DNA from: Halichondria panicea
Lineage: Eukaryota; Porifera; Demospongiae; Suberitida; Halichondriidae
Length of the DNA: 64,000 nt
Assembly (NCBI RefSeq): GCF_963675165.1
Contig: NC_087380.1
Coordinates: 1,603,803 to 1,667,802, forward strand
Direction: 5' to 3'
The notes below the pieces were generated by a model, which was given only the letters and a program-made list of their open reading frames with translations, did no database searches and was not told the origin of the DNA. The translations under genes were made by a program, and so were the position numbers. Positions 12,701 to 64,000 of this stretch are shown here, one piece after another. Position 1 is the stretch's first letter. Every line of letters begins with the position of its first letter.

Positions 12701-14381
12701 ATTAGATCAGCGATTTCTTTTGAGCGCCAAATTTTGTAAAATTCACTTGTCATACCGGGGGGGGGGGTTAGATTTGCACTTTATCCCCAGTATAGGGGGG
12801 AATTTGTTTGACAAGTGCATAATAATATTGTGTTTTTTCGGATTTTCGGAGCTAACTTTAAGAGGCCATAATTTATTGAGTTTGTTAAAAACTAAAGGAT
12901 GCATCTGGTAGCTCTTTGATAGCTTATTAATATTACCTCCACCACAGATGCACCTATTCTTACTCCTATCTCTACTCGCACCATCTGGGTTGTTGGGCAG
13001 ACGCTTCTGCTGGAGGCTTCGTTAGTGGGGGCTGTCCCCCGGACCATCGACAGCGTGGCCTGGACTAAAGACGGTGCTAATAGCAGGGGAACCCCCTCCA
13101 GCGAAGGGTCAAAGTACACTCTAACGGTTCCGGGGCTGACTTTGGGTGATGAGGGCATGTACGAGCTGACACTAACCAATGAGATTGGAGCAGGAATTCC
13201 GCTATCATTCAGTATCACTGTTAACTGTGAGTATAATCGTAATAAATTAACAGGGGCTCATTGGAGTATCCCCATTACCATAATGACTACTGCATTACCT
13301 AGGATACAGTGATGCAAAATAACATTGTTGTTGCATTGCTTTAGCAATCTAACAGAGTTACAATCCCCCACCCCCATAGTACCTCCTGTGTACGTCTCCA
13401 TCACCAACTATCCTGTTATGAACTCACTAGTTGCCATAGACACCATCGGAGATACCACTGAGACAGCATTGACTTGCAGAACTAACTCAACTATTTGCTG
13501 TACAGGACAAGATAATCCCAATAGTGCCAATGGATTAGGAGATTGGCTATTTCCGAATGGAACAGTTGTCACTAGGAATCAGGACATTACTGATTCAGAC
13601 ACTGATCTACTGTACAGTGTTGGAGATACAGGTGCACTCAGACTCCATCGTCGAGGGTCTGTGTCAGGTCTCACTGGCTCCTACTGCTGTGTGATTCCTG
13701 ATAACACTGGAGTAGATGTGACATTCTGTGTGCAGTTAGGTAAGTGGGTCTGTGTTCTCATCCTGTTACTGTATTATCCTGTGTTTCAGTGACTGGAGTC
13801 ATCACTATATCTCCTCCCACTACAAGTAAGTAGTACTATCATTGAGATGAGCGCAGCATGTTTTGTGTTAGTAACAACTTGTGGGTTGTCTCATGCATTC
13901 CATTACAGCCTCTACTGATGAGAGCTGTTTCTGTCAGTGTCCCCAGAGTGACAACACTGGTGCTGTGGTGGGAGGAGTGGTGGCCCTGGTAGCAGTGATT
14001 GCAGTGACTGTAGTGATGGTGACGTACCTAGTGCTCCGGTATAAGAGAGGAGGGAAAATGTGAGTAGTTGGTTTAAAGTAGTTTGTGTCAGTAGACACAC
14101 TTTGTTCAGTGTAAACAAGCTTCATATGAACTGAAAGCTTTTATTGTCATAATCACTACTAAGTAATATCATCTGTTCTCTCCACACACAGGACTGTTCC
14201 TCGAGATATCTCCCTTACGGACCAGGGTCAAAGTGCAGCCGCTACCTACGAGACCGTCCTTGCCACTTATGAGGAGATCCCAGCCTCTAGAGAGGTCAAA
14301 GGTGACTACAGCTACACACAGAACAATGCTTACTCGACTGTGAGTGGGCGTGAGGCTCCTGCTGCTGGAGGAATACAATAA
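637..14381 (+). CDS. Multi-Ig single-pass receptor with tyrosine-rich tail
   Basis: Exons: 637-694, 851-1005, 3506-3695, 10808-11077, 11210-11347, 12492-12647, 12948-13226, 13380-13739, 13790-13825, 13909-14059, 14192-14381; total 1983 nt, 660 aa, no internal stop. Residues 1-20 are a signal peptide (MSLKAAIVILVVLL). Ig1 is split over exons 2-3 (VISCQLP, VWFRDG, GRYTCQ). Ig2 (exon 4) keeps ITWTVN and LYVCSV but lacks the first cysteine. Ig3 is split over exons 5-6 (FTLTCAD, FEWSRD, GSYSCTG). Ig4 (exon 7) keeps VAWTKD but lacks both cysteines. Ig5 (exon 8) is the CC-type Ig of this cluster (CRTNSTICC, GDWLFPNG, GSYCCVIP). The helix (VVGGVVALVAVIAVTVV) is followed by RYKRGGKM and a tail with YETV, YEEI, YSYT and YSTV; it ends in GGIQ instead of the YDN of its paralogues. 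The 7.1 kb intron 3 is full of mobile elements. Role: cell-surface recognition and SH2-type signalling, inferred. Confidence 0.85.
1455..1925. mobile_element. Nested MITE: palindromic element carrying a pogo/Tigger-like MITE
   Basis: Outer inverted repeats of about 31 bp lie at 1455-1485 and 1895-1925 (CAGAGGAGGTACGACACGCG). Inside, the arms attgcctctgcaataacg at ~1490-1508 and ~1552-1570 form a hairpin. A second element at 1576-1891 (CAGTAGAACCTCGATTATCC at the left, its complement at the right) is flanked by TA on both sides, as expected of Tc1/mariner-pogo superfamily MITEs. No transposase ORF. It lies in intron 2 of the multi-Ig receptor. Confidence 0.75.
1955..2085. repeat. Short tandem repeat, ~54-60 bp unit
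   Basis: Two to three copies of a unit built from ttattcttgcaactg, taatgtccagagc and tattcttgcaactgtggtg follow each other directly in intron 2 of the multi-Ig receptor. No coding function is apparent. Confidence 0.7.
2510..2640. repeat. Dispersed repeat shared with ~44280-44400
   Basis: The core agtgctgcggtcacgtgg, followed by a ccacacct block and a ggtgtgg block ~60 bp later, is repeated with changes at 44280-44400 inside the adhesion GPCR gene. The ccacacct/aggtgtgg pair suggests a small palindromic non-autonomous element. The remaining intron sequence at 2085-3505 shows nothing else I can name. Confidence 0.45.
4014..4928. mobile_element. Long inverted-repeat element with internal hairpin
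   Basis: Arms at ~4014-4132 and ~4800-4928 are inverted copies (atactgcaatctgattgg; tagaaaatcatgtactt repeated three times in each arm). Within it, 4604-4748 forms a second hairpin (gttgctatgatctaaaatgc against its complement at 4728-4748). No transposase is visible, so this is probably a non-autonomous foldback-type element in intron 3 of the multi-Ig receptor. Confidence 0.65.
6600..6723. repeat. (CA)n microsatellite
   Basis: About 120 bp of (AC)n with scattered G and T interruptions. The His/Thr-rich reading frame across it is an artefact of the repeat. The flanks 4930-6600 and 6730-7930 show only diffuse repeat debris and no gene that I can support. Confidence 0.95.
7935..8045. repeat. 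Imperfect inverted repeat
   Basis: ctgctagcaggtcacta at ~7967-7983 pairs with tagtgacctgctagcag at ~7991-8007, inside a wider block with aagaaacct/aggtttct ends. A related palindrome occurs at 8875-9045. Possibly a foldback element. Confidence 0.4.
8094..8815 (-). pseudogene. Crypton-derived (DUF3504/KIAA1958-like) fragment
   Basis: Read on the minus strand, the first part (start 8805) has MSFKFREPKDF, CTGPGCTFC and an acidic middle, then a Thr/Ser-rich stretch. The frame then shifts at an A-rich run near 8383 into KTKSCTQWAVTLWIDW, FVLEVRKQR and YPPNTLYQLICGLQRHLKEN before a stop at 8094. The YPPxxLYQ...GLQRxLxxNG core is characteristic of the DUF3504 domain in KIAA1958/ZMYM-type proteins, derived from Crypton tyrosine-recombinase transposons. 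The catalytic C-terminal half is absent, so this is a truncated, frameshifted relic in intron 3 of the multi-Ig receptor, in antisense orientation. Confidence 0.6.
8875..9050. repeat. Palindromic element
   Basis: gaccatgtgtagtacgg at ~8878 pairs with ctactacacatggtcta at ~9029, and agtcactaatt at ~8938 pairs with aattagtgact at ~8970. It lies just 5' of the Crypton relic. The rest of the intron, 9050-10800, holds AT-rich sequence with no gene I can support. Confidence 0.55.
11922..12306. mobile_element. pogo/Tigger-like MITE
   Basis: CAGTAGAACCTCGCTAATCC at the left end is matched by its complement at the right end, ending at 12306, with TA flanking both sides (385 bp). This is the same terminal motif as the inner element at 1576-1891. 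It sits in the intron that splits Ig3 of the multi-Ig receptor and has no coding capacity. Adjacent sequence at 12309-12440 carries fragments of the cgcgaaattttcg repeat seen at 22640. Confidence 0.85.
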
Positions 14382-14640
14382 CTGAACTATCACATGACTC
14401 AAGTAGACTAGTAATTTATTTCTTGTTTACATTTCGGTTACTTTATACAGAGCACATAGATATACGTACTTCATAAGCCCCTCTCCTTTTCCTTTTTTCA
14501 CCAATATCAGCTTTTTTAGTACAACAAAGTAATATTATACAGTATAAAGCTACATGTATAGAATCAAGATTTTTGGTAAGTCTGAAAGTTTGCATCCTAA
14601 TGACAATTTATTGGCAAATCAGGTGCCTGGGAACGTTTGG

Positions 14641-14667: not shown

Positions 14668-14716
14668 TTCGAAACAAATAACTATGTCTCTGGAAAAGGA
14701 GAGAAGATTGCAGGCA

Positions 14717-16069
14717 ATGGAGACTCAAGGTGTTCTGCTTCTACTGCTGTTGCTGTTGTGTACTGTGTCCACCTGCTGGAGACAAGGTAATCTAGTGATA
14801 TGTATAACTAGTTTCCTGCTGTTAGTACAAATGTAGCTAGATCTATCAGAATTTTATGAAATCGTTAAAACATTTTAACTTGAATCACCTTGTATCACAA
14901 CAGTCTCACTGACACTGGAATCTGGCCCTGTCATCACTACTAACAATGTAGATATCCACTATTGGAGAGGGTGCTAGTCTCCCTTCTCTCATCTGTCACA
15001 CTGACCTCACTGCCTGTTGTAGAAGTGCTGCTGACAACAATGGTAATGGAGGACTAGGACAGTGGACGTATCCTGATGGGAGTGTGATACTGGGCAATGG
15101 TTACTCAGCGACTGCTGGACAACAATTCTACATTAATAGGAATGGTCCTCAGCTCATTGGACTGGCTCGTAGAGAGACTACCAACCCCCTCACTCCAACT
15201 GGGTCCTACTGTTGTACTGTACCAACTACTGAAGGAGATATGACCATCTGTGCTAACCTGGGTGAGTGGATAAAAGTATTATCATTGTATTATGTCAGCC
15301 AGTATGTGTTAATCTTCATGAGTTTATGAAACCATCATAACTCACTTGTATCATGCATAACCTTATCCCCCTCTTACAGTTGCACCTACTTCAGTCACAT
15401 GTTCTGATAATCTCCCGTCCATTCCTAATGGAGGCATAACCTATGCTGGTGGGTCCACTAACAACAGACCAGTGGGTGCTACAGCCAGTTACAACTGCGT
15501 CAATCCCTACTGTCTGGTTGGAGTGTCAGTGAGGACTTGTGGGAGTAATGGAGAGTGGAGCTCAACAACAGCTCCAGTGTGTCAGAGTAAGAAATGGCCG
15601 AATGTGCACGTTGAGTGTGTACCTGTTCCCATAGTGATCTGCTCTGACTTATCCTCACCGACAAATGGGGACATTGACTATGGTGGTGCTGGATCCACTA
15701 ACAGAAGATCAGTGAACACAGTGGCCACCTACACCTGTGACACTCGCTACACTCTCACTGGAGGCAGTACCACCAGGACTTGTGAGAGTGATGGAGTGTG
15801 GAGTGGGTCAGCTCCAATGTGTCAGAGTAAAGTAAATGAACTCTGTACTCTTTGTTTGTTGAGTGTATTCTCCTATACAGCTGACTGCCCTGACTTACCT
15901 TCACTGATCAACGGGATGATTATGTACAATACTGGATCTCCTGACAACAGACCTATCAATGCTGGAGCTATATACACCTGTAACACTGGCTACACTCTCA
16001 CTGGAGGGGACACTACCAGGACTTGTGTGAGTGGAGGGATCTGGAGTGGGGTACCTCCAACTTGTCAAA
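14717..16069 (+). pseudogene. Sushi/Ig receptor unit, frameshifted and 3'-truncated
   Basis: Exons: 14717-14786 (signal peptide METQGVLLLLL...STCW), 14904-15261 (B-type CC-Ig: LICHTDLTACC, GQWTYPDG, GSYCCTVP), then CCP exons 15380-15586, 15635-15826 and 15881-16069. In the Ig exon the frame entering from the signal peptide hits TAG near 14973; compared with the paralogous exon at 23041 a few bases are missing around 14958, after which the frame is intact. No CC-Ig, transmembrane or tail exon follows: the unit stops after three CCPs, 380 bp before the phosphatase fragment. It is the counterpart of the unit at 22899. It could make a secreted protein if the Ig exon is skipped, since 14786 and 15380 are both phase 1. 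Confidence 0.7.
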
Positions 16070-17677: not shown

Positions 17678-17761
17678 AAAATTAGCACCCTAAAAACTAG
17701 CCTCGATCCCAGGCCGCACTTCCCACTTCTCTTAGCGAAGTGGCTAGCTAGACTGCATGCA

Positions 17762-20700
17762 ATGGAGACTCAAAGTGTTCTACTTCTGCTACTGTGTGCT
17801 GTGTCCACCTGCTGGGGACAGCAAGGTAATCCTGTGATAATAATTGCTATTGGTAGATCTAGACTAGTAGGTGCTAACCTGAGTGAGTGGATTGTACAAT
17901 GGTTACCATATCCATATCACCTTCTCACAGTGGTGTGTTTGTTCCTCCCTACCCCCACCAATGGAGTGATCTTCTACTCTGATACAATACTGGGTGATGG
18001 TACTGTGGCCACTTACACCTGTGACACTGGCTACACTCTCAATGGAGGTAGTACCAGGACTTGTGGGAGTAATGGAATGTGGAGTGGGTTTGCTCCATCT
18101 TGTCAGCGTAAGTGGAATGGACTTTGTACTGTTTGTTTGTTGAGTGTATTGTCTCCCATACAGCTAACTGCCCTGAATTACCTACACTGGCCAATGGGAT
18201 GATTATGTACAGTGCTGGATCCACTCACAGCAGACCGATCAGCTCTAGTGCTACACACTCCTGTAACACTGGCTACACTCTCACTGGAGATGCCACCAGG
18301 ATATGTGTGAGTGGCGTGTGGAGTGGGTCACCTCCAGTGTGTCAGCGTAAGTGGAATGGACTTTGTACGTGCAGTTGAAACTGTTCACTATTTCAGGAAC
18401 TTGTTCTGATTTACCACCACTAATGGAGCTTCACCTTGTTTTATACAGTGAACACAGGACCCACTGAACCACCCACCACCTGTCCTTACCTCACTGTACC
18501 AGCCAATGGAAGGATAAACTACAATATGGGGACAGCTAGTCCGAAACCAGTGGACACTGTGGCCACCTACACCTGTAACACTGGATACACTCTTGATGAA
18601 GGCACTACCAGGACTTGTGGGAGTGATGGAGTGTGGAGTGGGTCAGCTCCAACTTGTAGACGTAAGTGAAATGGAGGACTCTGTATAATTATACTGTTCA
18701 TTTGTTTAGTGTGTATCATCTCCCATACAGCTAACTGCCCTGACTTATCACTGATCAATGGAATGATTATGTACAGTGCTGGATTCACTAACAACAGACC
18801 TTTCAGCTCTAGTGCTGTGCACTCCTGCAACCCTGGCTACACTCTCACTGGAGGTACCTTTAGGGTCTGTGTGACTGGAAGGAGATGGACTGGGTTACCT
18901 CCAACTTGTCAGCAGCGTAAGTATAGAATTGAATTTGTACTGTTGAATGTATAATGTTCACTATTTCAGAACTTTGTTCTGATTTACCACCACTAATGAA
19001 TGGAGGCATTATCTACATTGGTGGACTCACTGACAGCAGACCTGTTAATACCGTTGCTATCTACACTTGTGACACTGGATACACTCTCAATGGAGGTACT
19101 TCAAGGGTCTGTGTGACTGGTGGAATGTGGAGTGGGTCACCTCCTGTGTGTCAGCGTAAGTTATGAAATGTATAGACTATTCTTTTGTTGAAGTGTGCCT
19201 GTTTTTCCAGGTATCTGCTCAAACTTACCCCCACTGACCAATGGGATGATCTCCTATAGTGGTGAATCCCCTGACGTGGCCACCTACACTTGTGACACTG
19301 GCTACACTCTCAATGATGGAGACGCTACCAGGACTTGTGGGAATGGAGGAGTGTGGAGTGGGTCATATCCAGTGTGTCAGCGTAAGTTGAATGGACTTTG
19401 TACTGTTGTGTAGCTAGATCTTACCATGGCTAGGTCTACATGCAAGTATACCATAATTATGAGACTAAAATGTTTTGCGAGCATCCAACATAAGCAAATT
19501 TTGAGAGCAGTATTTGTATAGCAACACACTCCTTGCCAGAACGTAATAGTTGGATCACAAAGTGTCACATTTTCTTGATTTGTCTCATTCGCAATGGTTT
19601 TACACCAGCAAAATATTCTATAGTAATACGGTATTCTAGCAGTTAGTTCCGGTTCAGTGTGTTTATTGTTGAGTTTACCTGTATTGTATCCCATACAGCT
19701 GACTGCCCTGACTTACTCCCACTGATCAATGGGATGATTATGTACAGTGCTGGATCCACTAACAACAGACCTCTCAGCTCTAGTGCTGTGCACTCCTGCA
19801 ACCCTGGCTACACTCTCACTGGAGTGAGCACGATCAGGTTCTGTGTGACTGGAGGGAGATGGAATGGGTTAGCTCCAATTTGTCAGCGTAACCGTAAGTG
19901 TCTGTACTGTTGAATGTATAATTTTTACTATTTCAGAGTTCCACTACATCTTAACAGTTACTTCACCTTTCTTGATACAGTGAACACAGGACCCACTGAA
20001 CCACCCACCACCTGTCCTGACCTCACTGTACCAACCAATGGAATGATCAGCTACAATATGGGGGCTGTTAGTCTGAGACCAGTGAACACTGTGGCCACCT
20101 ACACCTGTGTCACTGGCTTCACTCTCAGTGGAGGTACTTCAAGGGTCTGTGTGACTGGAGGAGTGTGGAGTGGGTCAGCTCCAGTGTGTCAGCGTAAGTG
20201 GAATGGACTTTGTACTGTTGTGTAGCTAGATCTTACCATGGCTAGATCTACATGCATGTATACCATAATTATGAGACTAAAATGTTTTGCGAGCATCCAA
20301 CATAAGTAAATTTTGAGAGCAGTATTTGTATAACAACACACTCCTTGCCAGAACGTAATAGTTGGATCACAAAGTGTCACATTTTCTTGATTTGTCTCAT
20401 TCGCAATGGTTTTACACCAGCAAAATATTCTATAGTAATATGGTATTCGTTCCGGTTCAGTGTGTTTATTGTTGAGTTTACCTGTATTGTCTCTCATACA
20501 GCTAACTGCCCTGACTTACCCACACTGACCAATGGGATGATTATGTACAATACTGGATCCCCTGGCAACAGACCTTTCATATCTACAGCTACACACTTCT
20601 GCAACACTGGCTACACTCTCACTGGAGGTACCACCAGGGTCTGTGTGAGTGGAGGGAGATGGAATGGGTCAGCTCCAACTTGTCAGCGTGAGTTCTGTAA

Positions 20701-22477
20701 CTCTTGTACAGTTTGTGTTTGTGAGTTATAGGTACATAAACCCAAGGAAGATTGCATAGGTGGAATTGCTGTTGTAATATTTATGTTCACTATTTCAGGA
20801 GCTTGTTTTGATTTACCACCACTAATGGATGGAGGCATTGCCTACACTGGTGGACTTGTTGACAGCAGACCTATTAATACCATTGCTATCGTCACTTGTG
20901 ACAATGGCTACACTCTCACTACTGGAGGTGGAGGGAGTTTCAGAGCTTGTCAGAATGATGGGACCTGGGATGGAACTACTCCAACCTGTCAATGTGAGTT
21001 CCACTACATCTTAACAGTTACTTTACCTTTCTTGATACAGTAAACAAAGTAACCACTGAACCACCCACCACCTGTCCTGACCTCACTGTACCAGCCAATG
21101 GAGTGATCAGCTACAATATTGGGACTGCTAGTCCGAGACCAGTGGGCACTGTGGCCACCTACACCTGTGTCACTGGCTACACTCTCAATGGAGGCAGCAC
21201 CAGGACTTGTGGGAGTGATGGAGTGTGGAGTGGGTCAACTCCAGCTTGTCAAGGTAAGGAGTACTAATCTAAATGGTTAATAGATTGTGCTGTCTCCACA
21301 GCCACCTGTCCTGACCTTACTCCACCAACCAATGGAGTGATCATCTACAGCTCTAGTACCTCACCACACCCTCAGGGAACCGTGGCTAAACAGATCTGCT
21401 TGAATGGATACGTACCCTCCACTACCAGCACTGCTACCAGAGTGTGTGGAGCTGACAGATTGTGGAGTGGATCAGCTCTCACTTGTCAATGTAAACTAGT
21501 ACAATGAACTACCAGAGTTACAATCCTCCACCCCCACAGTACCTCCTGTTTACGTCTCCATGGGAACCACCAACTATGCTGCTATGAACTCACAGGTTGC
21601 CATAGACACCATCGGAGATACCACTGAGACAGCATTGACTTGCAGAAATGACTCAACTATTTGCTGTACAGGACAAGATAATCCCAATAGTGCCAATGGA
21701 TTAGGAGATTGGCTGTTTCCGAATGGAACAGTTGTCACTAGGAGTCAGGACATTACTGATTCAGACACTGATCTACTGTACATTGTTGGAGATACAGGTG
21801 CACTCAGACTCCATCGTCGAGGGTCTGTGTCAGGCCCCACTGGCTTCTACTGCTGTGTGATTCCTGGAAATACTGGAGTAGATATGACATTCTGTGTGCA
21901 GTTAGGTAAGTGGGTCTGTGTTATGCATTAATTGATTGTTGAGATGAGCGCAGCATGTATTGTGGTACTTGTCATACACTCCATTACAGCCTCTACTGAT
22001 GAGAGCTCTCTCTGTCAGAGTGACAACACTGGTGCTGTGGTGGGAGGAGTGGTGGCCCTGGTAGCAGTGATTGCAGTGACTGTAGTGATGGTGACCTACC
22101 TAGTGCTCCGGTACAAGAGAGGAGGGAAAATGTGAGTTTGAGTTATTTAAGTGGTTTGTGTCATTAGTTTTAAGTAGACACACTTTATCGTGTGCAAACA
22201 AGCTTCATATGGACTAAACAAACTGAAAGCTTTTATTGTTATAATTACTAACTAAGTAATATCTGTTCTCTCCACACACAGGACTGTTCCTCGAGATATC
22301 TCCCTTACTGATCAGGGTCAAAGTGCAGCCGCTACCTACGAGACCGTCACTGCCACTTATGAGGAGATCCCAGCCTCCAGAGAGGTCAAAAGTGACTACA
22401 GCTACACACAGAACAATGCCTACTCGACTGTGAGTGGGCGTGAGGCTCCAGCTGCTGAAGGAATATACGATAACTGA
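17762..22477 (+). CDS. Sushi/Ig receptor with 12 CCPs and tyrosine-rich tail
   Basis: Exons: 17762-17825, 17931-18107, 18164-18346, 18449-18661, 18731-18916, 18970-19155, 19211-19381, 19699-19893, 19981-20193, 20502-20687, 20799-20993, 21041-21253, 21302-21490, 21540-21905, 21990-22131, 22282-22477; 3075 nt, 1024 aa, open throughout. Signal peptide METQSVLLLL...CW; twelve CCP modules, one per exon (typical YTCDTGYTL...TRTC...WSGSAPxCQ); one A-type CC-Ig (CRNDSTICC, GDWLFPNG, GFYCCVIP); GG-rich helix; tail with YETV, YEEI, YSYT, YSTV and terminal YDN. All ectodomain exons are phase 1-1. A collapsed CCP relic (gttctgatttaccaccac) sits in the intron at ~18394-18430. The short Pro/Thr exon found before the helix in sister genes is absent. 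Likely a cell-surface recognition receptor signalling through SH2 proteins (inference). Confidence 0.85.
19382..20501. repeat. Duplicated intron with MITE-like insert inside the receptor gene
   Basis: The introns 19382-19698 and 20194-20501 are nearly identical (for example tagctagatcttaccatgg and ccttgccagaacgtaatag in both), each with the same ~200 bp insert related to the elements at 41262 and 56491. A block of CCP exons plus intron was therefore duplicated in tandem after the insertion. Confidence 0.75.
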
Positions 22478-22820: not shown

Positions 22821-22834
22821 TGTTAACAGGCATG

Positions 22835-22860: not shown

Positions 22861-22898
22861 AACTTCCAAAGATTACTGTGTGTAAGAGGTTGCATGCA

Positions 22899-25454
22899 AT
22901 GAAGACTCAAGGTGTTCTGCTGTTATTGCTGTGTGCTGTGTCCACCTGCTGGGGACAGCAAGGTAAATCCTGTGATAATGATTGGTAGTAGGTATGAGCT
23001 ATGACTATGAACTTGGTTTGAACCTTGTATCACTCAACAGTTTCCCTCACTCTGGGATCTGGTCCTGTCATCACCACTAACAACACGGAGATCTTTATCA
23101 CTGATATTGGAGAGGATGCTGTTGGTGGTCTGCCTTCTCTCACCTGTCACACTGACCTCACTACCTGCTGTAGGAGTAACGCTGACAACAATGGCATGGG
23201 GTCACTAGGACAGTGGACGTTTCCTGATGGGAGTGTGATGCTGGGAAATGGTGCCTCAATGACTACTGGACAGCAGTTCTACTTCGTAAGGAATGAACCT
23301 CAGGTCATCAAACTGTCTCGTAGAGATAACGTCAATCCCCTCACTCCAACCGGATCATACTGTACCAACTATTGGAGGAAATATGACCCTCTGTGTTAAC
23401 CTGGGTGGGTGAGTGGATTGCACAATCGTCAGTAACCTGTACACAGTGGTGTGTATGTCCCTTCCTCCCCCTACCAATGGAGTAATCTCGTACTCTGACC
23501 CTACAATGGGTCTGAACACTGTGGCCACCTACACCTGTAACATTGGCTATGCTCTCACTGGAGACACCATCAGGTCTTGTTGGAGTGATGGAGTGTGGAG
23601 TGGATCAGCTCCAACTTGTCAAGGTGTTAAAATTGGATCGAGATACATCAGTGTGCTTACATGGGAAATTATTTTCATGCTATAATTTGATACTTTATCC
23701 CCCCACAGTCGCCACTGTCACCTGCTCTGATGATCTCCCAACCATCTCTAATGGAGGCATAACCTATATGTTTGGGTTCACTAACAGCAGACCTGTGGGT
23801 GCTACAGCCACTTACATTTGTTTTAGTGGCTACCGTCTGACTGGAGTGTCAGTAAGAACTTGTGGGAGTGATGGATTGTGGAGCTCAATAACAGCTCCAG
23901 TGTGTGAGGGTAAGGAATGAATAATGTGTACGTTGAGTGTATCTGTTCCCATATAGTGATAACCTGCTTTGACCTATCTTCACTGGTAAATGGAAACGTC
24001 CACTATGGTGGTGCTGGATCCCCTGGCAGTAGACCAGTAGACACTGTGGTCACATACAACTGTAACACTGGCTTCACTCTCACTGGAGGCAGCACCAGGA
24101 CTTGTGGGAGTGATGGAATGTGGAGTGGGTCAGCTCCAACTTGTCAGCGTAAGTGGAATGTGTTTGTTTGTCGTGTGAATCTGTTTCCATTCAGAAATCA
24201 CGTGCACTGATCTGCTCTCACCGCCTAATAATGGAGCTATTTCCTATAATGGTGGATCCACTGACATCAGACCTATCAACACCATAGCTACACACAGCTG
24301 CAACACTGGCTACACTCTCAATGGAGAGTGTGTCAGAAGGACAGAACATGGAATGGTTCACCTCCAACTTGTCAAGGTGAGGACAAATAGTTACCAATAG
24401 TTGTTAGTGGACTCCTTGTTGACAGTTTCCTGTGGCCCCCCTCCCTCTATTACCAACGGATATCCCGGACAACCAACCAGCACAATGATCGGAGGAGAGG
24501 CGATCTACACCTGTGACACTGGATTCATTCTTATTGGCTTTGAAACCATCATGTGTTTGAGTACTGGTAACTGGAGCACCTCACCGTCCTGTCAGAGTAA
24601 GTGCGGCAGTTTTTTTATTTTATTATTACCACCGCCCTATAGCCCCTCCCCCTGTGTACTTGTCCCTCTCCTCCACCAACTATTTGTCTGGGCTCTCTGA
24701 GATCCCCCTGTCCTCCATGGGAGAGGGGAGTGGCCTCGTCTGTCATACTGACCTTGCTGGCTGCTGTGAGGGGAACACAGGAGATTGGTACTATCCTAAC
24801 GGTTCTGTTGTTATGGAGGATGGAGCGTTGTATGTTAGCAGAGGTCAGATGAGTGTCAGTCTGATGATGAGTGGAACAGCTACTGCTCCTGGTGGTGTCT
24901 ACTGCTGTGTGGTGCCTACCAGTGGAGGGATGAGCACAGCATGCAATGTGTTAGGTTAGTGCTGACAATAATTACACTGTTGGGTTGTCATTGTCCCATA
25001 TTCCATTACAGCCTCTACTGATGATCATGAGAGCTCTGAGTCTCCCTCTAGATCTGACAACACTGGTGCTGTGGTGGGAGGAGTGGTGGCCCTGGTAGCG
25101 GTGGTGGTGATTGCAGTGACTGTAGTGATGGTGACCTACCTAGTGCTCCGGTACAAGAGAGGAGGGAAAATGTGAGTTTGTTTAAAGTGGTTTGTGGTTT
25201 GTGTAACTTACGGACTAAACAAAAGGAAAGCCATAACTACTTCACTTATTTCTACACACAGGACTGTTACTCAAGATATCCCCCTTACTGAGCAGGGTCA
25301 AAGTGCAGCCGCTACCTACGAGACCGTCCACGCCACTTATAAGGAGATCCCAGCCTCCAGAGAGGTCAAAGGTGACTACAGCTACACACAGAACAATTCC
25401 TACTTGACTGTGAGTGGGCACGACAACACAGAGACTCCAGCTGTGGAAATATAA
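22899..25454 (+). pseudogene. Sushi/Ig receptor with two frameshifted exons
   Basis: Exons: 22899-22962 (signal peptide), 23041-23404 (B-type CC-Ig), CCPs 23447-23623, 23709-23909, 23957-24148, 24195-24376 and 24426-24596, 24643-24954 (C-type CC-Ig: CHTDLAGCC, GDWYYPNG, GVYCCVVP), 25012-25171 (helix), 25262-25454 (tail). Two exons are off frame: the first Ig lost 8 bases between repeats of tactg near 23360, destroying YCC and giving a stop at 23397-23399; the CCP at 24195 lost material near 24328. All other exons are open and phase-compatible, so skipping both damaged exons would restore a full frame. The tail differs from the others: YETV, YKEI instead of YEEI, YLTV, and it ends PAVEI without YDN. 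It may be a pseudogene, an allele, or a gene using alternative splicing. Confidence 0.75.
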
Positions 25455-30300: not shown

Positions 30301-30449
30301 CCGCTACCTACGAGACCGTCCCTGCCACTTATGAGGAGATCCCATCCTCCAGAGAGGTCAAAGGTGACTACAGCTACACACAGAACAATGCCTACTCGAC
30401 TGTGAGTGGGCGTGAGGCTCCTGCTGCTAGAGGAATATACGATAACTGA
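27357..30449 (+). CDS. Sushi/Ig receptor with 8 CCPs and tyrosine-rich tail
   Basis: Exons: 27357-27426, 27491-27667, 27724-27915, 27972-28160, 28208-28420, 28477-28662, 28715-28900, 28949-29161, 29214-29402, 29454-29801, 29853-29888, 29970-30117, 30254-30449; 2343 nt, 780 aa, open throughout. The ATG at 27357 aligns with the family start METQGVLL; an in-frame ATG at 27348 would add three residues. Order: signal peptide, eight one-exon CCPs, A-type CC-Ig (CRTDSTICC, GDWLLPNG, GSYCCVIP; eight residues shorter in the loop than at 21540), a 12-residue Thr/Pro exon, helix (VVGGVVALVAMVVIAVTVV), tail with YETV, YEEI, YSYT, YSTV and terminal YDN. Closest relative is the gene at 17762. Confidence 0.85.
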
Positions 30450-53449: not shown

Positions 53450-54926
53450 AGTGTTCAAGCTGGCGCTGTGCTAATGCCTCTCGCCATGTTTTTGCTTTCG
53501 CTCTAAAGTATTAGAGTGTTATTAGTTTCTATAATGAATTTTATATTAAAGTTAGCTTATCTATATAAAGTCACTGAGAAGAAATGACTTATTTACATAC
53601 ATCTATTGTTGTTATTTATTGTATTATGTAGCTTACCAGGACCTCAAGAAAGAAGAAAATTGATTCTTCCAGGATCTGTAGTTCAGTGTATATAATATCT
53701 AAGAAGAAAAGACCTGTGTACATGCATATTGTTATCTATATTGTTATATGGTAGTGTTTTGTGGTTTACCAGGCCCTCAAGACAAAAATGATTCTGCCAG
53801 GAGGATCTGGATCTTGGATATTATTTTCTCACACGTGGGGAATCTGCACTAGTCACACAATACGTCAAGATGACAGACACATGCACAAATCTCCCTATCT
53901 CATCCCTCCCCGCCCTTCTAGGTCGCCCTTCGATGCTATGGTCATGCTGTCAGCTGGATCGTTCTATGCATGGCCCCTCAAATTTCAGAATCAGGCTCCT
54001 AGTGGGCTGTGACGGGCTCGAGCTGGATGCGTCCAGGTTTAGATATCGCAACAGAGGAAATATCTCTCCCGGTGATGCATCGTGCAAACTATGCAACACT
54101 GAAGAAGAATCACCTTCACACTTTTTAGTAAGTTGCCCTGCTCTCTCAATGCGCAGACTTGCTCTCCTGCAGGATGCCCCATCCTGCATCAGTGTTCACC
54201 TCCCCCACGACTCAAGGGCACTACATGACACCCTCTACAATCTCCTGCAAGGCCTTGTCTGGCTGAAAGCTGCCCATGCGCAAGAGTGGCTCTTGCTCTT
54301 CATCAAAGATCTAAGGCAAACCCGCGCTGATCTCCTTCTCACAAGCACATTGGTTTAAAGCTCCACCCTCTTACTGCGTGTTATAATAATACCCATTTTC
54401 AATATTCTTTTTTGTCTGCCCAATGGGCTACTCTTCATTATTTGGAGGCTACAAAGAAGAAGAAGAAGAAGGGGAATGAGCGCGCATGCGCATTACATCC
54501 ATAGGAATAATTAAAGGGTGTGTCCAAAGAGATCAATTTCACAAATGGCTACTGCTAGCTAGCTGTTTTAACAGATATTTTCTGAGTATTGTAGCTAACA
54601 AAAAGCTAGCGCTTTAGTGCAAGGCTAACTCATATGTTGAATAGAAAGTTTGTGCGGACAGATGATGCTATGAAAGATTCTGAAGAGACTGCAACAGCCT
54701 TCAATGTGAGTCAAACTAGCCATAACTCGAGAAAGAAGCTTTAGTTTGCTAATCCACGAATCAAAATCCAAGAGAAGGTGGCTAGAAGCCTATAGAAGCT
54801 GTTAGTTTTCGTCGCATTGTAACCGTTGAGCAGTTATAGCTGGAATACACACACACACAGACAGACAGACACACACACAGTCAGCATTACCGTATCCCTC
54901 GTGCGGCTACGCCTCGAGGCATAACA
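53450..54926 (+). repeat. Dispersed repeat family R, copy B (interrupted by a LINE)
   Basis: Closely follows copy A (34340-35300) from gtgttcaagctggcgctgtg to gcggctacgcctcgaggcat, but is split by the LINE insertion at 53815-54470. Confidence 0.8.
53815..54470 (+). mobile_element. 5'-truncated LINE insertion with (GAA)n tail
   Basis: Copy A reads ggatct|ggggaatgagcg without a gap, whereas here ~656 bp sit between ggatct and ggggaatgag. The insert encodes the end of a LINE ORF2 with a zinc-knuckle-like CKLCNTEEESPSHFLVSC motif, stop at 54358, a short 3' UTR and a terminal (GAA)n run at ~54455-54470. The 5' part with endonuclease and reverse transcriptase is absent, typical of incomplete target-primed reverse transcription. 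Confidence 0.8.
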
Positions 54927-55905: not shown

Positions 55906-55914
55906 TCTAGTAGT

Positions 55915-57922: not shown

Positions 57923-60900
57923 ATGGAGAGTTTGTTGACTGGTCTCCTCTTGTTTCTCTCCACTCACTGTCTCTTGGTGGATGCTCAAGGTGGGTGGTGT
58001 GTGTGGGTGTGTGGGTTCAAAGAAGCAAGGACATGTATGCGTGTAAGGTACTAATCTAGTAATGAGCAAAGGTGCAAATTCTAAGTTAAACAAAAGAGCA
58101 CATGCGGTAATAAAAGATAAAGAAAGTTAGTCCAGTTAATTAGGGGTACAAGGTGTGCCTCGGCCGACACCAGGTCCACTGTAGGAATGGTCGTCCTGAT
58201 AGCACGGCCCCGGGAGGACCGGTAGCCTCGCACACACTGTATGGTCGATCTTAGTAGACTGTACGATAATGAGCATCTTAGCTAGTTTATGACCTGGTGG
58301 TACGGTTGGTCCCATTTCTCCGCTAGGAGGGAAGCCAGTCTCTTGTAAAAATTAGCAGCTGATAGCCCACACTCACCACCCCCCTCACACACACTCACCA
58401 CCCCCCCACACACTCACCACCCCCCCACACACACACACACCCACTCACACACACACACACACAGGAGAGCCTATTGTGACTAGCCTCACATACAACGCCC
58501 CCACACTCACCCTAACCTGTTTGTCCAGTGGGGGGCCGGCCACTACTGTCGTGTGGCGTAGGAACTGCTCCCCCCTCACAATAGGCACACCCTCACAGAA
58601 CCTCACAGACAGTATTGCGGGGGCGTACACCTCCACCCTCACACTCCCCACACCAGCTGATGATGGTGTCTACAGCTGTACAGTGGAGAATAGGCGAGGG
58701 AGATCCAGTAGCACAGTCACTGTCGGAGGTATAGGGTGGGGTCAGGGGGTACAATTTTGACCAGCGTATTATTATCGTTGCTTCCTCAGATGATGTTGCC
58801 TTTGATGTCACCATCACTCCTAGTGAAGCCACACCCATTGCTGGTCGACCTTTGACCCTCACCTGCAGCCACAACAGTAGTGATGATCTCACCTCCGTCA
58901 GCTTCCAATGGTTGGACACACAGGGGACATCTGTCAGTAATAACTCCACTTTGACCTTTGACACTCTGAGAGAAAGTCAGCGAGAGTACTATTGTGTGGT
59001 TACCGTGGGAACTGAAGTCGGCTGTGTCGAGTATTATAGCAATGTACAAGGTGAGAGTACATGGACTATTATAGTAATATAACGTACGTATGATACTAAT
59101 AATATTATTTCTGCCCCTTTGTCTAGTTCCTGTGTTTGGTGTTAATATCAGTGATGTTTCTGGAACTGTTGGTATGGCAACAACGCTCAGCTGTACCCTC
59201 TCTGACTCCCCTGTTACCATGGCAATGTATCGTTTCTTCAAAGGGGGTGTTTCCATTGGTACTAGCTCCACCCACATGTATACCATCCCCATGGCTCAGT
59301 TGTCTGATGCTGGGAATGACTACACATGTGAGGTGGTCATATCTCTTGATTACCTTGACCTCTCCAGTCCCCTCACTCTGAGCAGCAACCAACAGGCCAC
59401 CATATCACTAACCAGTGAGTTTATTTAGGCTTAGTTTATACCTAGATGTGTCAACTTTTCTGTTAGTTTTTTTATACTATATAAGTACGTAAAAAACAAC
59501 AACACCATATATAGCGCACTAATAATTGACTGGCTATACTAATGTTAGCTATACTTATTAAGATGTTGTACATAATTATACTAATTTGCACCTTACTCTT
59601 TCTACAGTACCGGACCCCAGTATGTTCATCAGTGTGACCCCCTCCACCATGGACACCACCCCCTTCACTCCCTACACTAGCGTGGATGCCATTATTAACT
59701 GTGCTACCACAACCGTTCTCATACCTGGTGTGGATGCTATCATTGTATTACTAAGAGTGGAGAACGGTGTAGAATCAGAGGTGGTCAGCACAGCAAGGAT
59801 AACAGCAGGTCCAGTTGTGAATACATTGAATGTCTTTTTCCTACGATCGTACTCCCACTCTCCTGCTAGTAGGATGGCAGACTCTGGTAGCTATGTGTGT
59901 GAGGGAACCATCATTCCTGAAGATGCTGGACTGAGGCCCTTTATCACTGATGGTACTAGCAGGTCCACCCTAACAGCCATTGATGTTCTTGGTGAGTGCA
60001 TGTACCTTCAGCCCAATTGTGTGTTCTATCAAAACTTGTGCAAACACACACAATAGCACTGTCAATCCTATATAATTATGTACAACCTAGCTACTGGTTG
60101 TACTAATACATAAGGCTATGTAGCCCACGGTTTTTTGTCAACATAGGCTGTTTTTCGTCCCTCCGGTCCCATAACTTTGATCTGAGCATGTCATGTGATA
60201 GGGTTTGTCTAGAGATCTCATTGTTGAGCTTTCTAGTTATGGCCTAGGTTGCTGTTTTTCAGACAATTAATACATGCGGCTATATACATGTATAGCCGAT
60301 GTGGTCTTTTCAGGACTACATGTATGTATTTCACTCTTCTCTGTACAGATCCGATACTGGACATTGCTGTCACCATGGTAACTGGTCGTATACTAGACAT
60401 ACCTCCGTACAACACCTATGCTATCACTTGTACGGCTTCATCAAGAGTTCAAAGTACACCCACGGCCATCACCAAGACGATAGAGTGGAGTGTATCCTTT
60501 AACAGTGGAGCAGTTACCATGGTAACAGAGGGGGTGGTGACTAATCACCTCGCCATGGCTACTAGTTCCAGCGTCTTGAGTATAATGACAAGTGTATCTG
60601 GAGAGTATGAATACAGGTGTGGTAGCCAACTAGAGCTGGTGGGTGTGGCTGACAGTGTGGAGGGGGCGGTCACATCAAGTGTCACTGTGTATGGTAAGCA
60701 CACACACACACACACATACATACTGCCGCCCACTCCACAGGCCCCTCCTCTCCCACCATGCCCACGTCACTGACTGTATCCATGGTGAACCATGAGTCGG
60801 CCAGCTTCGAGTGGGTGGTGATGACTGTTGCCTATGACAACGAGAGTTACATAGTGACATATGGCCTCGACTCTAATGACCTCACCAACAGCAGTGCCAC

Positions 60901-60942
60901 TCAACCTGGCTCCAGTGACATCAGCCTCACCAATAGTGTAAG

Positions 60943-60980
<38 letters not shown>

Positions 60981-61147
60981 GGTGCGTGCGTGTGCTCGTG
61001 ATACACTATATACCCCTACCTTGCAGGTGTACAGTATATCTGTGGGAGGTCTACAAATGAAGACAAGGTATTATTATCGTGTGGTGTCCACCAACTCAGC
61101 AGGCAGTACCCAATCAGAGCTGGCCACCTTCAACACCACTGGTGTTG

Positions 61148-61182
<35 letters not shown>

Positions 61183-64000
61183 TGTGTGGGTGTGTGGGTG
61201 TGTGGGTGTGTGTGTAGTAGATTCCTAACAAGCACCAAGTCTCACTCCCTGGTAGTGTGTGTGTGTACATGTGCCTACTGTAGCACTGTTGTGTATGCTG
61301 CTTTGACCACTATACACTGCAGGTCCGAGTGCTCCCCTCTCCCTGAGCTACATTATGACCACACCCACTAACCACACCTTCTCATGGCTTCCTCCTAACA
61401 ATACTGACATTGCTGTAACCCAGTACACACTCACCTGCCAGGGAACACTCAGGTACACATTATTATGAATAATATGCTAATTTATAATTTTGCTGACAGG
61501 ATTGGGGACCCTCTGGATTCTATCGCCATAGTAACCGTCATGACCTGTGTGAACGCTGACCTCGTCCCTTGGGCCAACTACACATGCTTCGTGGTTGCCA
61601 ATAACAACAATGGCTCCTCCCCTAGTAGCAACGAGATCAGTTTCATTACTCCTGAAACAGGTATTCAATAACCTTAGCAACCAGCAATAACCCCTAGCTC
61701 ACGCACACATCACACTCACATTCCCTACCCCCCACAGCTCCTAGTGGACCCCCTGGTAACTTTTTTGCTGGCTTAAATCCTACCGGAGGGATAGTACCAT
61801 TCACCTGGACTTCACCACCTTCTAACCAAAGGAATGGATTCATCATTGCATACTCTCTGGAGTGTAGTGCAGGACCAACAGATACCGTTGTCACAGTGTT
61901 CCCGCCATCTCCTAACAACCAGTACACGGCCATCAACTACTCTGCCCTCACTACCTACACTTGTAGTGTACGAGCTAGGAACAGTAAGGGGGAGGGGCCA
62001 CCAGCCACACTGGACGTTACCACAGCAGAGGATGGTACATATCATGCATGTGATAGGTTCGTGACCATGTATTGACCTTTCACCCTGTAGTTCCTGGAGC
62101 TCCTCCGATGTCGTTCACTGCCACCGCTCGTACTAACGGGACAGTGCTCTTTAATTGGAGTCCACCCCCCTCTGCACAACAAAATGGCGTCCTCACTGAC
62201 TACACTTTGACCTGTGCCCCGCCACTTTCCTTCAACTATGGTCCTAATGAGGTGGGCGGGACTGGTGAGGGGTTTTCCCCTGCCACACGCTACACATGTA
62301 CACTCACTGCCAGCACAGCAATTGGAGCTGGTCCATCAGCCAGCGTAACCATAGTAACATGTAAGTATATTATTATTCCTAGAAGTTATATAATGACTGT
62401 GGCTCCTCCCACTTCCTGTAGTTCCGTCAGTACCAGCTGTGAGTGTCATCTCTCTATCAAGTACTCAGCTGGGGGTCAACTGGACCACACCCGTTAATGC
62501 AATCATCACAGAGCATGTTATATATCTGGATGGGGCGGAGTTTGGCCGCTCCCAGGGGTCAGAGTTCATTATCAGTGGTCTACGTCCATACACAGAGTAC
62601 AATGTGGGGGTCAGTGCTAGTAACGAGGCAGGAGAGGGATCAGTCAGCGAGGGACAGATTATCAGGACACTAGAGGATTGTGAGTGCACGGGTATCAGTG
62701 TGTGTATTAGGAGCCTTTGTGGATCATAATAATTATATAGCGTTCTTTATTTTATTTGAGTATTTCTTTTAGTGCTGCTCTAAGAAAACAATTAATTACT
62801 ATCGTTAGTTTGTGGAGCCTTTTATTGATCCATCATTATTACAGCCATCGTGTAGTTGTAGGGTTAGCAGCTTTCTTCTCCACCATCATAACTGTATAGC
62901 TGTTGAATCACCATCCCTATTACCCCCCACAGTGCCTGGGCGTGTGGAGTGTGCCCCTCGCTGGGTGTCTAGCTCCTTCACTTCTGTCACTGTACGTTGG
63001 GCCCCGCCTACTCAAGAGAACGGCATCACCCTCGCTTACCACATCCGATTGGTTCGTTATGGAAGCTCTGACTCCACCCCCCTGGCCGAGGCTAACGTGA
63101 CTAGCTCTGATAGGGAGGTGACACTGACCCCCAGTGATGACTTGGTGGGGGGTATCCCCTACACTGTCCAGGTGGTGGCTGAGAATAGCATCGGACGTAG
63201 CACTGAGATATGCCAATCCATTGACTTCATTGCTCAGCTTGGTGAGTTGAAATTGACTAGTAATAATTATCATAATTATGATATCTACCTAATCTAGTTT
63301 TGAAATTAAAACTATCGACAATAGTTACCCCTAGTCGTTGTGAAATGTCTCATTTTAAGAAAAAATGCGTGCTATAGCCTTCTTGTTTAATATCCCCCCC
63401 ACAGAGCCCCCGCCCCCTTCTGGCCTGGGGGTCTCACGTACTCCTGATACTATAACACTGTCCTGGGACGTGCCTACTCTACTGGAGGCTAGAGGCTACG
63501 TTAGCTACACAGTGACCTTTGGACCCAGTGTGGGAGCACGCAAGAGACGACAGACATCTGATGAATGTAGCGTGTCACCTTGTAATGTCCCCGTGGAGAG
63601 AGGGGGTGTGGTCATCAGCGGCTTGGACCCTGGAACGAACTATGACCTCACAGTTACACCGTCCAATGAGGAAAACATTACTGGAATGGCTGCCACGGCA
63701 ACAGCTCCAAGTAAATGAAAACACTTAATAATATCTTGTGCCGGTATAAATGCAATGTGCAGGATGGTGGTATTTTGCACATTATAGACAGCAGTCTTAC
63801 TACCTGTGTTCCTTGCCCCCCCCCCCCCCGTACAGCATTATTGTGTGCTCACCTATACAGTTTGTGACAGCTGTTCCATTTGACAACAGCTGTCACAACT
63901 ACATTGTACCAGTGCCGGGAGGGATGAGCACAGCATGTATTGTGTTAGGTTGGTGCAAACAATGATAGTCTCATGCATCCATTATACAGCCTCTACTGAT
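57923..64000 (+). CDS. Ig/FN3 receptor (5 Ig, 7 FN3), 3' end beyond window
   Basis: Exons: 57923-57989 (signal peptide MESLLTGLLLFLS...VDAQ); Ig exons 58465-58728, 58790-59050, 59127-59414, 59608-59991, 60349-60693; FN3: 60741-60937+61027-61147, 61323-61452+61500-61660, 61738-62034, 62091-62360, 62422-62679, 62933-63241, 63405-63710. Ig1 and Ig2 have the full C-W-YxC set (LTCLSS, VVWRRN, VYSCTV; LTCSHN, FQWLD, YYCVV); Ig3 lacks the tryptophan. FN3 exons show xSW/NWxxP and YxxxVxAxN motifs. FN3-7 contains GARKRRQT, a furin-type R-K-R-R site. A possible short exon 63871-63948 (VPGGMSTACIVL) equals the end of the cluster's C-type Ig, and the last bases (from 63990, ASTD) are the start of the shared helix exon. 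All junctions checked are in frame. Predicted cell-surface receptor with the cluster's tail. Confidence 0.8.
58380..58463. repeat. (CA)n-rich tract before an Ig exon
   Basis: cactcaccacccccc and (AC)n repeats run directly into the acceptor at 58463-58464. Similar (TG)n tracts flank the split FN3 exons at 60946-60977 and 61150-61216. Confidence 0.9.

Follow-up and report, generated by a model that had tools for sequence, protein, structure and literature searches.

Sponges distinguish self from non-self. None of the literature passages that we examined names a receptor family for this process, and the titles and abstracts searched, in which coverage of subscription papers was thin, nowhere describe a family with the features reported here. 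A 64,000-nucleotide stretch of the Halichondria panicea genome (the window) holds tandem receptor-like genes and raises the question of what kind of system such genes would build. A sequence-only reading of this DNA had proposed one signalling module, a helix exon followed by a tail exon, beneath ectodomains that are interchangeable and differ radically, the genes being arranged in tandem among dead copies.

Exon organization of the window

Gene models, which were our own and combined splice sites with HMMs, gave the following features (SP, signal peptide):

10898-11077, 11210-11347, 12492-12647 and 12948-13226, + strand: first gene, classical Ig exons (exon models, phase 1-1)
13380-13739, + strand: Ma, membrane-proximal CC-Ig exon of the first gene (custom HMM, E 4e-52; no Pfam match)
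13790-13825, + strand: small stalk exon, TGVITISPPTT, phase 1-1 (score 46/60 against the phosphatase-gene stalk)
13846-13870, + strand: intronic fossil, an Mb exon end of 25 nt
13909-14059, + strand: helix (TM) exon, phase 1-2
14192-14381, + strand: tail exon with YETV, YEEI, YSYT and YSTV
14714-16069, + strand: gene fragment with SP, 5'-truncated N-Ig (14968-15261) and CCP groups 6, 5 and 12
17759-22477, + strand: receptor with SP, 12 CCP, Ma (21540-21905), helix (21990-22131) and tail (22282-22477); every strict check passed
21943-21967, + strand: intronic fossil of the Mb exon end (identity 22/25), without a stalk exon
22896-25454, + strand: receptor with SP, N-Ig, 5 CCP, Mb (24643-24954), helix (25012-25171) and tail (25262-25454)
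27357-30449, + strand: receptor with SP, 8 CCP, Ma (29454-29801), helix (29970-30117) and tail (30254-30449); every strict check passed
29853 and 29909-29933, + strand: stalk exon and Mb fossil, respectively, in an intron of the preceding receptor
50733-52617, + strand: damaged tandem composite; 5' part with CCP, CCP7, Mb (51139-51450) and an out-of-phase helix (51501-51679)
the same composite, + strand: 3' part with partial Ma (51734-51937), stalk (51988), Mb fossil (52044-52068), helix (52115-52265) and tail (52422-52617)
58465-63710, + strand: last gene, five Ig-like and seven FN3-like exons (exon models; the last FN3-like exon ends at 63710)
63908-63947, + strand: fossil of the Mb exon end in the intron between FN3 and helix; intron sequence of Mb type comes next
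63990-64000, + strand: first bases of a helix exon that ends at 64125, outside the window

The ectodomains described earlier as 12 CCP plus Ig, Ig-CCP-Ig and 8 CCP plus Ig matched our models, each of which also begins with a shared signal-peptide exon, and the description of the last gene as five Ig plus seven FN3 agreed as well. The first gene had been read as five Ig; we modelled four, i.e., the classical exons at 10898-13226 (four exons in three groups) together with the Ma Ig, whose acceptor lies at 13356 or 13380. Pfam matches in the classical exons were I-set (5.3e-6 and 1.6e-5, above the cut-off) and Ig_2 (1.3e-3, below it). Of the last-gene ORFs tested, two were Ig-like, one of which gave a weak Ig match that fell short of the curated cut-off (8.4e-5), and two were FN3-like, one of which matched fn3 (2.5e-8); the stretch 61268-63852 of this gene is 85% identical in DNA to contig C4 at ~1577.3-1579.9 kb. 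In the fragment at 14714-16069 the next SP follows with no intervening helix or tail. The receptor at 22896-25454 has one CCP without a good donor, and its N-Ig, which likewise has no good donor, is probably damaged. Scanning the window for Rfam families and tRNAs returned no matches. Two silicatein-type active-site motifs were found within peptidase C1 matches, which supports assigning the DNA to a sponge; in a Bcl-2 search made for taxonomic placement, all names among the 60 of 194 matches listed were of vertebrate type. An adhesion-GPCR-like gene lies within the receptor cluster.

Distribution of the helix and tail exons

Within the window, a 44-nt helix probe matched at six sites with 0-2 mismatches and at none in 100 shuffles, and the tail exon was located at 14192, 22282, 25262, 30254 and 52422. 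Five of the helix copies were in phase upon translation (13909, 21990, 25012, 29970 and 52115); the copy at 51501 was not, since its normal phase stops after STDA and only another frame is open. Past position 64000, the exon that begins at 63990 runs on in frame and is followed ~250 bp outside the window by an open tail exon (match at C4:1668055-1668249; the stop-containing exon corresponds to window coordinates 64252-64450), as the earlier reading had anticipated.

Of 82 helix/tail matches in the genome, 78 were on contig C4 and 80 lay in the receptor loci that we examined; the other two (C4:2462069 and C4:4396056) follow Mb-type Ig matches at a downstream distance of no more than ~300 bp. 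The pair is confined to receptor loci, namely three tandem, same-strand arrays on C4 and a few other places, and an Mb-exon match was also found on C1:3715626. Within the 301.5 kb examined there were 40 tail and 44 helix exon matches. Helix exons have phase 1-2, whereas the ectodomain Ig and CCP exons have phase 1-1. This confinement excludes a genome-wide repeat. We also consider it highly improbable that the exons belong to a dispersed repeat, with non-functional debris at most loci: just 11 of 46 gene segments passed all strict checks and some have clear lesions, but most of the 40 tails retain an open frame and the motif tyrosines, and the tail median dN/dS is 0.51. A single helix/tail cassette beneath differing ectodomains, in tandem with dead copies, was upheld for these loci.

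The near-identity of the cassette might be taken as a sign of constraint. However, the helix and tail show synonymous divergence of roughly the same low level as the Ig exons, and the helix median dN/dS was 0.72. In view of these results and the tail value, we rejected strong purifying selection as the reason for near-identity, which would be better accounted for by recency or gene conversion.

A shared ectodomain plan with variable CCP arrays

Most ectodomains are less different than had been supposed, being variations on SP, N-Ig, CCPs, an Ma or Mb Ig, helix and tail, from which the Ig genes and the Ig-FN3 genes depart. The same signal-peptide exon opens 40 of the 46 gene segments, and N-Ig is present in 22. 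The whole plan, with 3-10 CCPs, was found in 16, and many others lack only N-Ig. The remaining 35 segments outside the strict set are incomplete, cut at the edge of the examined stretch or failed a strict check, in some cases owing to limits of splice scoring. The putative Ig domains N, Ma and Mb show the pattern LxC...W...L...GxYCC; their best Pfam match, I-set on Mb (0.26), is below the cut-off.

Genes differ in their number of CCPs, and recombination occurs among CCP groups. We considered and rejected the idea that the receptors and the GPCR-like gene have exchanged CCPs: with groups defined at a 30% clustering threshold, groups 3, 13, 14, 16, 23 and 24 were found only in two array C stretches. 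Diversifying selection was not seen, because dN/dS was <1 in every set (0.33-0.72); pN/pS of the receptor CCP groups was 0.37-0.90.

Traces of module exchange in introns

The proposed interchange of ectodomains proved real, in that introns still hold recognizable, truncated exons of the module that was replaced. Ma and Mb exons are only 51% identical, whereas the intron that follows is 82% identical and the helix and tail exons 89% each. An Mb exon end was found in 12 of 17 Ma introns before the helix, and the stalk exon in 13 of these 17 vs none of 13 Mb introns; nine of the 17 Ma-tail genes have both, with the stalk first and then the final 22-25 nt of the Mb exon. Five Ma introns have no readable Mb end and four no stalk. 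In the three intervals between Ma and a phosphatase-type helix (the phosphatase gene described below and two array A remnants), the stalk was present in all three and an Mb end scored above shuffles in none.

These results indicate that a phosphatase-type end (Ma and stalk) was joined onto an Mb-tail gene through a break within the Mb exon, and that the last bases of the broken exon remained in the intron of Ma-tail genes. In the last gene of the window, CCPs and Mb were lost through another break; the source arrangement is still found nearby. A fossil at the Ig-to-Ma join of the first gene was sought and rejected (score 22, below the null of 25). Locus S, with Ma and Mb in one gene, was dismissed as the arrangement from which the Ma-tail intron directly descends, because its own Ma intron mismatches.

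Plain tandem duplication, in which ectodomains diverged without exchange while selection conserved the ends, would fit the arrangement of the arrays and the low synonymous divergence of cassette and Ig exons. It is at odds with the step from 51% to 82-89% identity and is already contradicted by the intronic fossils, the same introns holding truncated Mb exons and phosphatase-type stalk exons; we therefore give it hardly any weight. The tail tree, poorly resolved with 2 of 27 inner branches starred, also argues for exchange: it requires 7 M-type changes vs 1 for the M tree. Shuffling gave a mean of 10.1 changes, and 15-18 of 500 shuffles required as few.

The ectodomain on a receptor tyrosine phosphatase

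The claim of one signalling module did not hold, since the N-Ig/CCP/Ma ectodomain also occurs, in the one gene that we read, on a receptor tyrosine phosphatase. This gene (C4:425367-431.4 kb) has N-Ig, 8 CCP (nearest groups 6-5-1-4-2-1-11-4), Ma, a different helix of the same phase (1-2) as in the tail class, an I-set Ig (2.8e-13) and a PTP domain (2.2e-67, exons joined by us) with WPD and HCSAGVGRTG; it was read through the first PTP domain. The modelled exon order puts the I-set Ig beyond the helix, on its cytoplasmic side. No signal peptide of the shared type was found in the 366 bp before N-Ig. With a helix and a PTP domain carrying the WPD loop and HCxxGxxR(S/T), the gene is predicted to encode a receptor protein tyrosine phosphatase.

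The PTP signature was found 63 times in the genome, 53 of them on C4, vs 0 in the reversed control. Among the matches listed, at least 36 of the 53 had a CC-Ig exon on the same strand within 9 kb upstream and 17 had none, and an opposite-strand CC-Ig was near 1; the N search scored 150 of 308 candidates and the Mb search 150 of 274. Uniform random placement, a control that leaves clustering outside its model, gave a mean of 8.1 and a maximum of 19 in 2000. Proximity thus suggests that 35 more signatures may belong to phosphatase receptors with such ectodomains.

Ig/FN3 receptor phosphatases commonly serve as adhesion receptors, and the GPCR-like adhesion gene shares the cluster, so the genes might be ordinary Ig/CCP/FN3 adhesion molecules and receptor phosphatases of development or tissue adhesion, duplicated by chance. 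Scores of alike tandem copies, many of them damaged, with shuffled CCP arrays would be unusual for adhesion genes of fixed role, and we consider this explanation improbable.

Tyrosine motifs of the tails

At least one Yxx(I/L/V) was present in 39 of 40 tails and three sites in 27; YEEI was found in 35 tails and YDEI in 2. The ITAM pattern (YxxL/I-x6-12-YxxL/I) occurred in none of the 40, the ITIM pattern (S/I/V/L)xYxx(I/L/V) in 8 but not in 32, and the ITSM pattern in 3, which excludes an ITAM tail or a general ITIM tail. A Src-type SH2 domain docks on pYEEI, and because ITAMs are absent and canonical ITIMs so few, it is on this property that our proposal of docking rests. There were 71 SH2 exon matches in the genome, three of which share one open frame with a kinase on C2.

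Discussion

As read from the genome, a tail class in about 40 loci is established, with shared ectodomain exons and phases and with swap scars. The same ectodomain family on two signalling ends, a feature of paired receptors, is present, as judged from the one phosphatase gene read. We consider a paired recognition system of tail and phosphatase receptors to be the best explanation, and on balance a probable one. A phase 1-1 pool of Ig and CCP exons would feed type I receptors with two opposed phosphotyrosine ends: a helix (phase 1-2) with a short tail of up to three Yxx(I/L/V), YEEI leading, or a helix of the same phase, then an I-set Ig followed by a tyrosine phosphatase domain. Putative ligands of the variable CCP arrays would cluster receptors, perhaps through GxxxG helices and variable stalk cysteines; a Src-type kinase would phosphorylate the tails and its SH2 domain dock onto YEEI. 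Phosphatase receptors that carry similar ectodomains would be engaged by identical or related ligands and would erase the tail signal, and the cell would read the balance of the two.

Vertebrate paired receptors (KIR, LILR, SIRP, CEACAM) likewise place one ectodomain family on two opposed ends, in tandem clusters with exon exchange. Their inhibitory end recruits a phosphatase by an ITIM, whereas the opposed end in the sponge would itself be a phosphatase. With other receptor phosphatases the sponge gene shares a single helix and a PTP domain with WPD and HCSAGVGRTG; it differs in the cytoplasmic-side I-set Ig (in the modelled order) and in the 53 signatures on one contig. An R3-type receptor phosphatase has been reported from Amphimedon (PMC5336234); as far as the available passages describe it, that type bears FN3 repeats, in contrast to the N-CC-Ig/CCP8/CC-Ig ectodomain shared here with the tyrosine-tail family.

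Compared by description, the Botryllus fester co-receptors (FcoR) of the fuhc locus agree with the sponge receptors in plan, and in plan only: type I proteins with signal sequence, Ig, sushi, Ig, helix and a tyrosine tail with YxxI/L/V core motifs and, in some, ITIMs, from 53 loci in a clustered, copy-variable region (PMC12065747). According to the passages seen, FcoR combines two C2 Ig domains with a single sushi and has fester proteins as partners, whereas the sponge has a free number of CCPs, CC-type Ig domains with no Pfam match over the cut-off and a receptor phosphatase as the opposed module. Hydractinia Alr, of the allorecognition complex, is a cluster of 41 genes of the Ig superfamily whose V-set/I-set domains are unusual, and it resembles the sponge family as such a cluster in a non-bilaterian animal (PMC11999971); the passages at hand mention neither CCP arrays nor phosphatase twins, and candidate allorecognition genes bear ITAM/ITIM motifs (PMC12065747), unlike the sponge tails with regard to ITAMs. 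Ciona vCRL1, a polymorphic complement-receptor-like gene proposed as an individuality marker, has CCP domains, but is described in the passages as a single gene rather than a two-module family (PMC5465252). Geodia has Ig-domain cell-surface proteins, an adhesion molecule and a receptor tyrosine kinase (PMC12018476, PMC11999971), for which the passages describe no CCP family with a shared helix and tail.

The system would most likely serve self/non-self or microbe recognition. Recognition of microbes or symbionts alone, by germline-encoded pattern receptors whose repertoire expanded but has no self/non-self role, would agree with variable CCP number and recombining CCP groups, as in pathogen-driven families, and with the expansion of other innate receptors in sponges, e.g., SRCR proteins (PMC10855680). 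Sequence cannot part it from allorecognition; the Ig-CCP-Ig-helix-tyrosine tail plan resembles the fester co-receptors of a histocompatibility locus, as described in part of PMC12065747, and we hold the microbe-only explanation to be rather unlikely. Returning to the paired system, we propose, tentatively and with more doubt than confidence, that ~4 Mb of one chromosome form a histocompatibility-like complex in which cells weigh tail receptors against phosphatase receptors sharing those interchangeable ectodomains and specificities recombine between the two arms.

The locus is a concrete candidate for sponge recognition with a testable mechanism, and its readable scars show how recognition modules move among signalling modules. 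Paired recognition balanced by phosphotyrosine would then be present in an animal group that branched early, and the opposing receptor would contain its phosphatase rather than recruit one. If this is true, recombination could turn one sensing module from a sender of the signal into its eraser.

Genomic extent of the helix/tail cassette

The sequence-only reading had described one helix (transmembrane) exon and one cytoplasmic tail exon, nearly identical wherever they recur under different ectodomains. The positions reported for both exons were borne out; one of the helix copies, that at 51501, is not in phase. The exon beginning at 63990 was found to lead to a tail, having a normal donor and then an open tail exon past the window end (match at C4:1668055-1668249; the window itself spans C4:1603803-1667802). 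The proposed genome search with the helix and tail exons, run over 131.5 Mb in 39 contigs, gave 82 exon matches, 78 of them on C4. Eighty of the 82 fall inside the 301.5 kb fetched for analysis, and the other two each lie just downstream of an Mb-type Ig match. Three receptor gene arrays were delimited on C4:

C4:268-328 kb, minus strand, array A
C4:1095-1155 kb, array B
C4:1530-1677.5 kb, array C

Beyond these, four further fetched places, on C4 and contigs C5 and C1, carry the cassette. Custom HMMs identified 44 helix and 40 tail exons in the fetched stretches, every one on the gene strand of its array.

Receptor architecture and CCP order

We divided the arrays into 46 gene segments, of which 40 open with a common signal peptide exon (42 matches; split into two pieces in two genes) and 22 contain the N-terminal CC-type Ig (N-Ig). 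The whole plan, i.e., signal peptide, N-Ig, 3-10 CCPs, a membrane-proximal Ig (M-Ig) of type Ma or Mb, helix and tail, is present in 16/46. All strict checks of splice sites, length and open frame are satisfied by 11 segments, including those at 17759-22477 and 27357-30449 of the window; the other 35 are incomplete, cut at a stretch edge, or fail some check. Exon phases agree with 1-1 throughout the ectodomain and are 1-2 for the helix, and the tail opens in phase 2, so that any ectodomain exon can stand before the helix.

Clustering of 250 of the 274 CCP matches at 30% distance gave 36 groups, of which 27 have several members. Their order shows a grammar: group 6 or 8 frequently leads, the pair 1-2 recurs within some genes, and 13 of the 15 genes with Mb have group 7 immediately upstream of it. 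Separately, an adhesion-GPCR-like gene at 35878-47500 has ~23 CCP exons, ~18 of them forming a 220-bp tandem array, partly 98% alike, followed by CESSHFTAF, which resembles a GPS, and by frames judged 7TM-like by eye (one ORF matches 7tm_2 at E 0.018, short of the cut-off). A second CCP stretch with the same groups lies within C4:1549 to 1568 kb, and an ORF at 53792-54355 weakly matches zf-RVT (E 0.0014, below cut-off), a possible retroelement remnant.

Mean synonymous difference was 0.137 for helix, 0.145 for tail, 0.175 for N, 0.143 for Mb and 0.257 for Ma exons, and was higher, at 0.485, for 100 sampled CCPs of mixed groups. The near-identity of the cassette is better explained by copies that are young or homogenised than by strong constraint. 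Positive selection was not demonstrated by median dN/dS in the six exon sets (helix 0.72, tail 0.51, N 0.68, Mb 0.33, Ma 0.48, CCP 0.54) or by mean pN/pS inside receptor CCP groups, which ranged from 0.37 (group 7) to 0.90 (group 1).

A phosphatase gene with a similar ectodomain, and further candidates

Merged CC-Ig searches, with 150 matches scored in each, found at least 182 distinct exons on C4 between 0.1 and 4.4 Mb, many more than the tail cassette explains. At one such place (C4:425001-431900 read), the exons of a putative gene code for an N-Ig, eight CCPs, Ma, a helix unlike that of the tail type, an I-set Ig domain (2.8e-13) and, with WPD and HCSAGVGRTG, a domain of tyrosine phosphatase type (2.2e-67); no signal peptide was found in the 366 bp searched upstream of its N-Ig. 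Its CCPs are nearest to tail-receptor groups 6-5-1-4-2-1-11-4 (71-87% identical), its Ma is 88% identical to tail-receptor Ma, and by our reading its helix exon has phase 1-2, as in the tail type. Oddly, the I-set Ig (C4:429-430 kb) is coded between the helix and phosphatase exons, apparently on the cytoplasmic side.

Of the 63 phosphatase signatures found genome-wide, 53 lie on C4; the reversed control has none. At least 36 of the 53 have a CC-Ig exon at most 9 kb upstream on the same strand, and 1/53 on the other strand among the matches listed; uniform random placement, a null that takes no account of clustering, averaged 8.1 and reached at most 19 in 2000 draws. Eighteen signatures form a plus-strand run at C4:335-483 kb that adjoins minus-strand array A. 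Two other CC-Ig places were read: in one, no helix was found in the interval that separates three CCPs from the following N-Ig, and in the other the sequence read ends inside CCPs. PF00102 gave at least 176 exon matches in the genome; most of those listed are on C4, mostly at 0.04-2.6 Mb in several runs on both strands. Away from C4, seven N-type CC-Ig matches form a small cluster at C14:2940746-2955058, with no helix in the 5.5 kb read.

Swap scars in introns

We compared 30 genes having M-Ig, helix and tail (17 Ma, 13 Mb). Between the two types the M exon is 51% identical, whereas the next intron is 82% (shuffled introns, 35-38%) and the helix and tail exons are each 89% identical. The terminal 17-25 nt of the Mb exon sit in the pre-helix intron of 12/17 Ma genes, mostly followed by Mb-type intron sequence; in one Ma intron of the 17, C_1539526, the Mb-end match was not above its shuffles. 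A 30-36 nt stalk exon, TGACTGGAGTCATCACTAC..TCTCC, which follows Ma in the phosphatase gene, occurs in the pre-helix intron of 13/17 Ma genes and 0/13 Mb genes. The stalk is present in all three intervals from Ma to a phosphatase-type helix, of which one belongs to the phosphatase gene and two to remnants in array A, and in none did an Mb end exceed the shuffle maximum. Both elements, stalk upstream, are present in 9/17 Ma-tail genes. Taken at face value, these sequences mean that the end of a phosphatase-type gene was fused to an Mb-tail gene via a break inside the Mb exon. Against this exchange, 5/17 Ma genes have no readable Mb end, 4/17 have no stalk exon, and resolution of the tail tree is poor, with 7 M-type changes versus a shuffled mean of 10.1.

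The Mb fossil encodes the last cysteine strand, common to N, Ma and Mb, and Mb precedes the helix in all four places outside the arrays; from these two features we infer that Mb is an older neighbour of the tail than Ma. Three array B genes without M-Ig retain 30-33 nt of Ma exon end plus donor (30/30, 32/32 and 33/33 identical), and two array A genes have a phosphatase-type helix exon followed by the end of a tail-type helix exon (48/56 and 41/44 identical).

The last gene of the window, an Ig-FN3 gene, is 85% identical over 61268-63852 to the FN3 part of a relative at C4 ~1577.3-1579.9 kb, a putative single gene with, in DNA order, FN3 exons, CCP groups 2, 10 and 7, Mb, helix and tail. Homology stops in the intron past the last FN3 exon, after which come a short stretch of filler that contains an inverted repeat, an Mb end, an Mb-type intron and the helix:

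63908-63947, Mb exon end, 40 nt, with a 4-nt insert, after the filler of the last gene

The last gene looks like the shortened form, produced through a second, independent Mb-exon break. The inverted repeat in the filler at this deletion joint, gacagctgtt...aacagctgtc, lies at 63865-63905. In the relative, a MITE-like insert at C4 ~1579.97-1580.3 kb, with inverted ends agactggcggcaa...ttgccgccagtct, separates the FN3 from the CCP exons.

Other genomic observations and known relatives

Two motifs of the silicatein-type active site occur, both within peptidase C1 matches on C2 (none with the reversed-pattern control), supporting a siliceous sponge. A COX1-like fragment at C1:5280527-5280718, with two TGA codons readable as Trp, is probably a nuclear copy of mitochondrial DNA. 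Bcl-2 domain exons are expanded on C3 (11/17 genome matches; C3:861789-1623158).

Among the systems compared, the Botryllus fester co-receptors have the most similar described plan (PMC12065747), and the Hydractinia Alr genes are nearest on the animal tree (PMC11999971). The terms immunoglobulin, sushi, CCP and receptor were all absent from the main text of the Amphimedon grafting transcriptome (PMC5450542), and none of the titles and abstracts listed in literature searches concerned such a sponge receptor family.

Tail motifs and proposed working

A Yxx(I/L/V) site is present in 39/40 tails, and 27 have three; YEEI occurs in 35 and YDEI in 2. No ITAM was found among the 40, while the ITIM pattern occurs in 8 and ITSM in 3. 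Phosphorylated YEEI is the classical Src-family SH2 ligand, and SH2 exon matches number 71 genome-wide; for three, on C2, the same open frame also contains a kinase. Of the 44 helix exons 40 were tested, and 38 of these have GxxxG. None of the helices matched by a crude pattern has a charged residue, but an arginine stands there in the damaged 51501 copy (GAVVRG). Stalk cysteines number 0 to 3 (33 exons counted). We infer that the tail receptors would constitute a kinase-tail arm, which a phosphatase arm with similar ectodomains would oppose.
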